From assembly GCF_000739595.1 (NCBI RefSeq), contig NZ_BBJP01000081.1, forward strand, positions 124,001-188,000: a DNA stretch of 64,000 nt, written 5' to 3'. Below are positions 43,559-45,626 of this stretch, one piece after another. This stretch comes from Halorubrum halophilum (GTDB taxonomy: Archaea; Halobacteriota; Halobacteria; Halobacteriales; Haloferacaceae). Position 1 is the first letter of the stretch. Each line of letters opens with the position of its first letter. The translations under genes were made by a program, and so were the position numbers. The notes beneath the pieces were generated by a model, which was given only the letters and a program-made list of their open reading frames with translations, ran no database searches and had not been told where the DNA came from.

Positions 43559-45381
43559 AGCTGGTCCTCCACGGCCGCGAACTTGCCGTTCGCACCGCCG
43601 CTCGGCACCATCGGGAGGACGTTCTCCTCGGGATCGACGTGGAAGTCGATCACGGCCGGCCCGTCGTAGTCGAGGGCCTCCTCGACCGCGGGCGCGACCT
43701 CGTCGTAGTCGTCGACGCGGAGGCCTAAGGCGCCGAACGCCTCGGCGAGCTTGTCGAACTCGGGCATCCACGTGTAGTCGGAGGCCATGTGGCGGCCCTC
43801 GTAGAAGGCGTCCTGCCACTGGCGCACCATCCCGATGTACTCGTTGTTGAGCACGGCGATGGTGACGTCGAGGTCTTCGCGGACGGCCACCGACAGCTCC
43901 TGCATCGTCATCAGGAAGGAGCCGTCGCCGTCGAAGCACACCACGTCGCGGTCCTCCTCGCCCATCGTGTCGGCCGCGACGCGCGCGCCGACCGCGGCTG
44001 GCACGCCGTACCCCATCGTCCCCAGCCCGTGCGAGGAGACCCACGTCCGGGGCTCCGTGTACGTCCAGAACTGGGAGGCCCACATCTGGTGTTGGCCGAC
44101 GCCCGTGGTGACGATGGTGTCGTCGTCGGTCGCCTCGTCGAACGCCTCGACGACGAACTGCGGCTTCAGCGGCTCGTCCTCGGGCGTCGCGTACGTGAGC
44201 GGGTACGTTTCTTTCCACTCGTCGCAGCGCTCGCGCCACGCCTCGGCGTCGGGCGCCTCGCGGACCGCGGCGGTCAGCTGGTCGAGGACGCGCCCCGCGT
44301 CACCGATCAGCGGGTAGTCGGCGTACACGTTCTTCGAGATCTCGGCCGGGTCGATGTCGACGTGGACGACCTCGGCCTCCGGCGCGAACGTGTCTATCCC
44401 GCCCGTCAGCCGGTCGTCGAACCGGGTGCCGACCGCGATCAGGCAGTCGGTGTGGGTGATCGCCATGTTGGCGTAGCCGGTGCCGTGCATCCCCGCCCAC
44501 GAGAGGCAGAGGTCGTCGTCCTCGGGGAACGAGCCGATCCCCGGCATCGTCGTCGTCACCGGGATGCCGTACGTCCGCGCGAAGGTGCGCGCGGCGTCGC
44601 TCGCGTCCGCCTTGATGACGCCGCCGCCGAACAGGCACACGGGTCGCTCGGCCTCCTCGATGGCGCGGGCGGCCTCCTCGACCGCGTCCGAGTCGGCGTT
44701 CGGGTCGGGATCGGTGCCGGCCGGCGGCGTCGCCGGCTCGGGCGTCTCGTCCGTCTCGGCCTGCGTCACGTCCTTCGGCAGGTCGACGAGCGTCGGCCCG
44801 GGACGCCCCGCGCGCGACAGCTCGAACGCCTCGCCGACGGTGTCGCCGACGGTGTCGGCGCCGTGCGCGAAGTAGTTGTGCTTCGTGATCGGGCGGGTGA
44901 CGCCGACCGTGTCAGTCTCCTGGAACGCGTCGTTGCCGACGAACTCGGTGGGAACCTGCCCGGTCAGCGCCAACATCGCGTCGGAGTCCATGTCGGCGTC
45001 GGCGATGCCGGTGACGAGGTTCGTCGCGCCCGGACCCGAGGTCGCCAGGCAGAGTCCCGGCTCGCCGGCGACGACGCCGTAGGCGTCGGCGGCGTGGGAT
45101 GCCCCCTGCTCGTGGGCCATCGTCACGTGGCGGATCGAGGAGTCGTACAGCGCGTCGTAGACGGGCATGATCGCGCCGCCCTGCACGCCGAAGGCGGTCT
45201 CCGCGCCGGCGGCCTCCAGCGCGGCGACGACCGACTCGGCGCCGGTCGACACCGGTCCCGCGACGGGACCGTCGTCGGCGCCCGGATCGTCGGTCTCGGC
45301 CGCGACCGACTCGTCCGCGTCCGGCGGATCCTCCGGCTCCTCTGCGTCCTCGTCTCGTGGCTGTGCTGCTGTGTCGCTCAT
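43555..45381 (-). CDS. ilvB: Acetolactate synthase large subunit
   Basis: First common step of branched-chain amino-acid synthesis, TPP/FAD/Mg-dependent. 608 residues with a ~40-residue acidic lead. TPP Glu in MAHEQGASHAADAYG; FAD domain; TPP/Mg motif GDGSFLMTMQELSVAVREDLDVTIAVLNNEYIG. Last ~20 residues ([24 protein letters not shown]) are typical. First structural gene of ilvBNC-leuCDB. Preceded by a 139-bp leader region with a leader peptide and two hairpins. Confidence 0.97.
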   Translation of the reverse strand: MSDTAAQPRDEDAEEPEDPPDADESVAAETDDPGADDGPVAGPVSTGAESVVAALEAAGAETAFGVQGGAIMPVYDALYDSSIRHVTMAHEQGASHAADAYGVVAGEPGLCLATSGPGATNLVTGIADADMDSDAMLALTGQVPTEFVGNDAFQETDTVGVTRPITKHNYFAHGADTVGDTVGEAFELSRAGRPGPTLVDLPKDVTQAETDETPEPATPPAGTDPDPNADSDAVEEAARAIEEAERPVCLFGGGVIKADASDAARTFARTYGIPVTTTMPGIGSFPEDDDLCLSWAGMHGTGYANMAITHTDCLIAVGTRFDDRLTGGIDTFAPEAEVVHVDIDPAEISKNVYADYPLIGDAGRVLDQLTAAVREAPDAEAWRERCDEWKETYPLTYATPEDEPLKPQFVVEAFDEATDDDTIVTTGVGQHQMWASQFWTYTEPRTWVSSHGLGTMGYGVPAAVGARVAADTMGEEDRDVVCFDGDGSFLMTMQELSVAVREDLDVTIAVLNNEYIGMVRQWQDAFYEGRHMASDYTWMPEFDKLAEAFGALGLRVDDYDEVAPAVEEALDYDGPAVIDFHVDPEENVLPMVPSGGANGKFAAVEDQL

Positions 45382-45433: not shown

Positions 45434-45480
45434 CGAACGCCGGATCATCGGACGAGAACGGACTCGCCCGTCGGCGTTCG
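45434..45480 (-). promoter_or_regulatory. Second leader hairpin upstream of ilvB
   Basis: In the RNA (minus strand), outer arms CGAACGCCG (45480-45472) and CGGCGTTCG (45442-45434) pair 9/9. Inner arms GGGCGAG (45469-45463) and CTCGTCC (45456-45450) pair 7/7 with one G-U, around a six-base loop TCCGTT. No U-run follows, so a classic archaeal terminator is not evident; it may instead control ilvB translation or transcript stability. It lies between the leader-peptide stop and the ilvB ATG. Confidence 0.6.
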
Positions 45481-45512
45481 TCGATGCGTGGCGTCGGTGA
45501 GGAAGGGGTGGT

Positions 45513-45532
45513 GTAGGGGGTTAGACCCCTAC
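45513..45532 (-). promoter_or_regulatory. First leader hairpin overlapping leader-peptide stop
   Basis: In the RNA (minus strand), GTAGGGG (45532-45526) pairs perfectly with CCCCTAC (45519-45513) across a loop TCTAAC that contains the UAA stop of the leader peptide. A ribosome stalled on the preceding ATT-ATC-GTA codons would cover the 5' arm and prevent folding. Confidence 0.65.
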
Positions 45533-45595
45533 GATAATCGGCGCGACGGCTCCGGCGACGTCGGCGGTCGTCGGGATTGCGGCGTGCCGTCGCAT
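45521..45595 (-). CDS. Candidate leader peptide of the ilvBNC-leuCDB operon
   Basis: 24-residue ORF beginning MRRHAAIP and ending VAGAVAPIIVGV-stop. Seven of its residues are Ile or Val, with ATT ATC GTA GGG GTC just before the stop. It lies at the very 5' end of the predicted transcript (TATA box at 45621-45626, ATG at 45595). Classic arrangement of a branched-chain amino-acid attenuator: leader peptide rich in the end-product amino acids, with a hairpin at its stop. No Leu codon is present, so it would sense Ile/Val. Experimental and comparative evidence is not available to me. Confidence 0.65.
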   Translation of the reverse strand: MRRHAAIPTTADVAGAVAPIIVGV

Positions 45596-45620
45596 CTCGC
45601 TTCCACCAACGCGACCGGGG

Positions 45621-45626
45621 TATAAA
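45621..45626 (-). promoter_or_regulatory. TATA box of the ilvB operon
   Basis: TTTATA on the minus strand, about 26-30 nt upstream of the leader-peptide ATG, so transcription is predicted to begin at or a few bases before that ATG (leaderless). The rest of 45627-45766 shows no gene. Confidence 0.6.

Follow-up and report, generated by a model that had tools for sequence, protein, structure and literature searches.

Does the region between leuA and ilvB on the minus strand of this 64-kb stretch of DNA (the whole of which was analyzed and is referred to below as the window) hold a leader-peptide attenuator, a textbook bacterial mechanism, in an archaeon? We consider it likely, with a probability of ~0.7, that the element found there is a ribosome-mediated attenuator that controls the ilvBNC-leuCDB operon by sensing how far Ile- and Val-tRNA are charged, with stalling, termination and the direction of control all being inferred. 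The ORF, its frame, the identity of its codons, the hairpin, the T-rich tract and a copy of the element before valS are shown by comparison of genomes.

The initial annotation of the window had proposed a TATA box at 45621–45626, a 24-codon ORF and a 7-bp hairpin with the stop of that ORF in its loop, and all of these held, all on the minus strand, as do the coordinates that follow. The box, TTTATA (45626–45621), starts 31 nt before the ATG (45595–45593) of the leader ORF (45595–45521; 24 codons, MRRHAAIPTTADVAGAVAPIIVGV-stop), and from this spacing the ORF is judged to be leaderless. The ORF ends in ATT ATC GTA GGG GTC TAA (45538–45521), giving a peptide that closes with IIVGV directly before the stop, and its putative regulatory codons are ATT ATC GTA (Ile Ile Val; 45538–45530). 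The hairpin GTAGGGG-TCTAAC-CCCCTAC (45532–45513) is perfect, with arms GTAGGGG at 45532–45526 and CCCCTAC at 45519–45513, and its loop, TCTAAC, contains the leader stop (45523–45521). A G-free, pyrimidine-rich tract lies 3' of the hairpin (45520–45496) and is the putative termination region; it is T-rich in most relatives, and in the window the post-hairpin sequence is CCCCTTCCTC, where the T signal is weak and limited to TTCC. The genes after the leader are, in order, ilvB, ilvN, ilvC, leuC, leuD and leuB. The first controlled gene, ilvB (acetolactate synthase large subunit; 45381–43555, with its ATG at 45381), had matches in 59 of 59 genomes searched, and the remainder of the operon (43558–38579) was identified from ORFs and their translations, including ilvC (42783–41728), leuC (41648–40227) and leuB (39577–38579).

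Of 1671 stop triplets in the window, 21 have a 7-bp hairpin of this type, and so the hairpin alone is unremarkable and it is the combination of features that is remarkable. When the window was scanned with a combined rule (a TATA-like box with an ATG, a short ORF, and a stop falling within the loop of a hairpin that is GC-rich and at least 5 bp long), the ilvB leader site was the single match. A second hairpin at 45434–45480 had also been claimed as part of the element, and this claim failed: the inverted repeat exists but is lineage-specific, with a matching repeat in 11 of 36 Halorubrum-type loci and in none of 59 others, and it was rejected as a component of the switch. As a separate observation, many Halorubrum leaders have an extra stem (GCGACGGC/GCCGTCGC; 45541–45594 in the window) flanking the variable middle of the ORF, which is not evident in other genera.

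Conservation in relatives had been set beforehand as a test that could refute the proposal, and it was passed across the haloarchaea; orthologues of the leader were found in 96 loci, representing 94 distinct ORFs. Among 80 named haloarchaeal loci the leader was present in every contig that contained the leader region, the two loci without the element (L044 and L108) being contigs cut inside ilvB. The genera that have it include Halorubrum, Halobellus, Haloquadratum, Halogeometricum, Haloprofundus, Halobaculum, Haloarcula, Halomicrobium, Halosimplex and Halorussus. It was also identified in 17 of the 20 loci taken from other families. Of the three without the motif, only that of genome G051 (L139) has a recognizable leader, a diverged one read as MKAVVRTKNGLFVSCAAVQVSVGA-stop with a hairpin, GGUGC/GCGCC, that includes one G.U pair; in the deep-branching G042 and G044 the ilvB leader is absent. 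No GTAGGG leader was found in nine ilvB regions (L222–L230) from other classes of the phylum, and a BLAST search of the leader against plasmids gave no match. Comparison thus shows the ilvB leader to be a real, haloarchaea-wide element. In one genome of another class (G074, L228) a short ORF, MLKVHANPIVVGLVE-stop, precedes ilvB without a GGGG hairpin and with T-rich sequence after it; this single case is possibly an independent leader.

Is the leader ORF translated? TATA-like boxes also precede the leader ATGs of relatives, with the start of the box 28–36 nt, mostly 31–33 nt, from the ATG. ATGs were then picked by the TATA box only; of the 83 TATA-linked ATGs obtained, 81 are open and share the frame of the GTA codon, and 13 leaders gave no ATG that passed the TATA rule. 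The length of the ORF ranges from 16 to 56 codons and takes 22 different values. Among the 34 distinct leaders of 24 codons the body varies freely and only the C-terminal end is kept, the conserved codons (Val17, Ala18, Ile21 and Val24) vary almost solely at third positions (GTC/GTT/GTG, GCG/GCC/GCT, ATC/ATT and GTA/GTC/GTT), and the stop switches between TAA and TGA. Comparison therefore supports translation of the leader, based on the frame being kept at 22 lengths and on the third-position changes, with translation itself remaining an inference.

The codons adjoining the hairpin have a branched-chain signature. Residues of this type (Ile, Val and Leu) constitute 46% of the ten C-terminal leader positions versus 13% of the remainder. 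Across the 94 leaders, the codon before the GTA of the hairpin arm specifies Ile in 91, Val in two and Leu in one (ATT 54, ATC 37, GTA 1, GTC 1, CTC 1), and in all 94 the codon following this Ile, Val or Leu is the Val codon GTA. These are unusual choices: GTA accounts for 40% of leader Val codons versus 0.7% of the Val codons in ilvB genes, and ATT for 48% in leaders versus 6% of the Ile codons in ilvB genes. It should be noted that GTA belonged to the motif by which leaders were found, and its invariance in 94 of 94 is therefore partly by construction. For the named loci, every intact ilvB leader region was picked up by that motif, and the diverged leader of G051 also has GTA. Since GTA is retained even in leaders whose 3' arm has lost its pairing to this codon, base pairing alone is insufficient to explain its presence. 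In most lineages the invariant codons are one Ile and one Val only, fewer than in E. coli leaders. The view that an Ile/Val-rich leader, a hairpin at its end and a biosynthetic operon for the same amino acids form an attenuation architecture is supported by the comparison, and the leader likely resembles a sensor of branched-chain amino acids; a response to starvation is inferred, there being no expression data.

For each of the 94 leaders the hairpin has a predicted P > 0.8; stems are 5–11 bp long and loops 3–7 nt. Covariation is present and modest, there being a few changes on both sides of the innermost pairs (e.g., G-C to C-G in L107). Loop and stop overlap in all leaders except one (90 of 91 segments). 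The exception, L134 (G046), is a variant that reads GTA GGG GCG CTG CCC CGC TAG, in which the 5-bp hairpin GGGGC-GCT-GCCCC lies wholly within the ORF and is directly followed by the stop. No mutually exclusive antiterminator of the E. coli subtype was found in the 94 leaders, and upstream complements of the 5' arm were below chance (13 observed versus 33.5 expected); the ribosome itself would therefore have to act as the switch, and the design of the leader seemingly leaves a ribosome as the only means of blocking the hairpin, an inference from sequence.

The absence of a U-run had initially been taken to indicate translational or stability control. That argument is weakened, as relatives have a T-rich tract 16–20 nt after the stop. 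The 20 nt after the hairpin are nearly free of G (0.03–0.04), the T fraction reaches 0.48 at +16 to +20 after the stop versus about 0.11 further downstream, and runs of at least three Ts occur in 36 of the 94 leaders versus 7.8 ± 2.5 in shuffles. The tract is detached from the hairpin in many relatives and weak in Halorubrum. It resembles the termination motif of Haloferax volcanii, in which intergenic termination sites have a T stretch with TC, 503 sites have a hairpin ≤10 nt on their upstream side, and one tested hairpin ended 59% of transcripts in vivo (PMC7237163).

A second copy of the element provides what we consider the strongest sign that the leader codons track the amino acid with which the gene under control is concerned. 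Among 243 genomes of the order, 131 contain the pattern GTAGGGGC-N(0-6)-TAGCCCC, many of them at two sites, and the reversed control pattern was rare; because the pattern specifies TAG it misses leaders with TAA or TGA stops, such as those of the window's own genus. In twenty 5-kb pieces around pattern sites, eight sites lay before ilvB, 10 before valS and two were chance-like. The identity of valS was confirmed in all 10 (L231, L232, L235, L237, L238, L240, L242, L245, L246 and L250) by the ValS sequence DTPPPTVSGxLHMGH. The valS leaders, examples of which are MSDSVAPTAFSGPRATVFVGAP-stop, ...LVVVGAA-stop and ...PPVVGAV-stop, retain GTA-GGGGC and the stop within the hairpin, and often have two or three of the rare GTA codons (GTA TTC GTA, GTA CGT GTA, GTA GTA GTA). 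They have no Ile codon beside the hairpin, the residue before the final GTA being Phe, Arg or Val.

The element is not a general device, given that no such leader was found upstream of trpC (no Trp leader peptide in L143–L171), ilvD, the ileS of the window or, likewise, a leuS-like gene of genome G212. A scan for stops in loops across 2.23 Mb of G212 (about 85% of the genome) gave six matches versus 0–3 in controls with displaced stops. The ilvB leader was the sole recognizable attenuator among them, the valS locus being outside the scanned part, and the idea of a general class of such leaders was rejected. Searches against Rfam leader and riboswitch families (T-box, amino-acid operon leaders and ilvB-linked riboswitches) had no relevant match in the window at E ≤ 1, and at gathering thresholds there was nothing relevant in five relatives. 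The trpC promoters (L143–L171) have a feature of their own, a conserved palindrome, GTACA...TGTAC (TTATGTACA...TGTACA-like), directly after the TATA region, which is likely a repressor site.

How might such a leader work? In the model that we favor, transcription would start at or next to the leader ATG, and the first ribosome would load on the leaderless mRNA behind RNA polymerase; co-purification results support the coupling of transcription and translation in haloarchaea (PMC8576121). With ample charged Ile- and Val-tRNA, the ribosome would read AUY GUA GGG..., reach the stop in the loop and depart, upon which the GC-rich hairpin would close with the polymerase over the pyrimidine/T-rich tract 16–20 nt past the stop, and the transcript would be ended there, intrinsically at the T-tract and/or with aCPSF1/FttA. 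If Ile or Val were short, the ribosome would stall on AUY or GUA. The leading edge of a ribosome is about 15 nt from the first base of the P site, and when the A site is occupied by an Ile or Val codon it would lie over GGGGC, and hence a stalled ribosome would keep the hairpin open and the termination factor off the RNA, and ilvB would be transcribed. It has been suggested, as speculation, that the ribosome and aCPSF1/FttA exclude each other at RNA polymerase (PMC8116511). There would be no competing antiterminator, the switch being the ribosome. Premature termination is the likeliest output, as an inference made without expression, Ribo-seq or 3'-end data.

The main rival keeps the same Ile/Val-tRNA sensor and replaces the output with RNA cleavage or decay, the hairpin or the release of the ribosome exposing the leader RNA, or with altered translation of ilvB. 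In its favor, the tract after the hairpin is merely weakly T-rich in Halorubrum, and archaeal aCPSF1 is itself a ribonuclease (PMC7515710), which makes cleavage and termination hard to tell apart by sequence. Against it, T runs are enriched exactly where haloarchaeal termination sites would fall, and the distance from the leader stop to the aligned IlvB start spans 74–476 nt, making pairing with the ilvB start region unlikely. On balance we regard this alternative as unlikely.

Two further alternatives are very unlikely. The first is a nascent-chain arrest peptide, whose C-terminus IVG(A/V) would stall the ribosome at the stop with a free branched-chain amino acid as the trigger, as for TnaC with tryptophan. 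The restriction of conservation to the C-terminal residues beside the stop would suit such a peptide. However, the residue before GTA varies (Ile, Val or Leu in ilvB leaders; Phe, Arg or Val in valS leaders), Gly-Ala is dictated by the RNA arm GGGGC, and the choice of the GTA codon is invariant, which a peptide-level signal does not need. The second alternative is that the palindrome is a DNA operator for a factor common to ilvB and valS and that the ORF is incidental. The element is indeed palindromic in Halorubrum and common to two functionally linked genes, and the trpC promoters bear a palindrome in place of a leader. Conversely, the spacing of the half-sites changes with the length of the loop (3–7 nt), GTA is invariant in the 5' half-site but in many cases lacks its complement in the 3' one, and the ORF is in frame at 22 lengths with synonymous changes. 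A functional microprotein, suggested by an ORF that is conserved and probably translated, is all but excluded by its length of 16–56 residues and an unconserved body of which only the last residues are kept.

The attenuator reading of ilvB gains a possible companion in the adjacent leuA gene. The LeuA reading frame (2-isopropylmalate synthase; 46939–45767) has no start codon of its own: from the stop upstream to the conserved N-terminus of LeuA, no in-frame ATG, GTG or TTG was found, and an in-frame leuA start is likewise absent in nearly all of the haloarchaeal loci read (L033–L112 and L122–L141). Over the leuA start lies instead a leaderless frame-0 ORF (46988–46917; MTDITEASSDTPADRVLPGHDSF-stop), relative to which the LeuA frame is +1, and the predicted site of the shift is GTT CTT C (46943–46937; Leu codon CTT, +1 triplet TTC), conserved as (G/C)TTCTTC. 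All 79 loci with a TATA-linked ATG have an open short ORF with LeuA +1 to it. The frames join at (G/C)TT CTT C in 95 of 97 leuA starts, and in the remaining two, which are deep-branching, at TTTTTTGG (CGT TTT TTG), a Leu codon being on offer in both types of site. In cimA-type genes, a paralogue resembling the Ile-pathway enzyme, all 14 loci have a preceding frame-0 ORF relative to which the enzyme frame is +1; the two frames join at ATT C in 13 loci and at ATT G in the other, with junctions GAA ATT C or TTT ATT C (L173, G000:C81:142409; L174–L199). Disruption of cimA/leuA1 in H. volcanii results in Ile auxotrophy, and ilvB/ilvC mutants of this species have also been made (PMC4300041). One cimA-type locus, L186, additionally has a stop-in-loop hairpin (MTTDRFIAGAV-stop; GGGTGC/GCACCC).

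It appears that leuA needs a +1 shift at a Leu codon and cimA one at an Ile codon, which is a prediction, frameshifting not having been shown. The common design NUU-C, where the base N sets the codon for the amino acid made by the pathway and the +1 triplet is UUC, suggests hungry-codon frameshifting. It is likely, as inferred from sequence, that these shifts and the ilvB leader belong to one ribosome-based branched-chain amino-acid system. A bolder reading joins stop-in-hairpin attenuators at ilvB (Ile and Val) and valS (Val) with starvation-induced +1 frameshifting, in which LeuA would be made only with a hungry Leu CUU-C and citramalate synthase only with a hungry Ile AUU-C; this joint claim could as readily prove wrong as right. 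If true, it would bring tRNA-charging attenuation to the Archaea together with programmed hungry-codon frameshifting as metabolic feedback. The leuA shift could also explain a difficulty of annotation that is already in print. For HVO_1510, Pfeiffer and co-authors drew attention to a problematic start codon and to out-of-frame ATGs, reported peptides upstream of Met-93, and speculated on slippage in the absence of leucine, with translation only under that condition (PMC8305020). Their Haloferax leuA2 anomaly concerns the same leuA gene; here the CTT-C site is located and conserved, and an Ile version is identified in cimA.

Attenuation had been thought not to be established in haloarchaea, and this is consistent with the literature searched: no report of an archaeal leader-peptide attenuator was found in the open literature, subscription papers being mostly outside the search. 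A haloarchaea-wide example would show that archaeal transcription–translation coupling is used for gene regulation, and the leader would give a natural reporter of whether ribosomes shield nascent RNA from aCPSF1/FttA, as has been speculated (PMC8116511).

By comparison, the leader has two features of an attenuator, a short 5' ORF that comparison indicates to be translated and codons for pathway amino acids adjoining a hairpin; as for the terminator, the hairpin is present in all, and the T-rich tract is present in many relatives, is not adjacent and is weak in the window. The leaders of the E. coli ilv, leu and trp operons have exclusive antiterminator and terminator folds and a U-run directly after the terminator. 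The haloarchaeal leader shares with them a translated leader, pathway codons just before a hairpin and a biosynthetic operon downstream, but has one hairpin and a separated T-tract. Aminoacyl-tRNA synthetase genes are under tRNA-charging control in bacteria, examples being the E. coli pheST attenuator and the T-box of Bacillus valS, and the second copy suggests a like control of haloarchaeal valS by charging of its own tRNA; unlike a T-box, its leader has no Rfam match and the sensing would be via the codons of the leader ORF. The nearest described system is the bacterial ilvB-II uORF of Corynebacterium, which is rich in branched-chain codons, precedes ilvBNC and is proposed to act by transcription attenuation via its translation (PMC10272879). 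In contrast to that system, the haloarchaeal mRNA is leaderless, the stop is in the loop of a single hairpin with no antiterminator found, and the RNA polymerase and termination factors concerned are archaeal. The anatomy fits attenuation by Ile/Val-tRNA charging, and the haloarchaeal leader is thus likely a new archaeal variant of a bacterial form of control.
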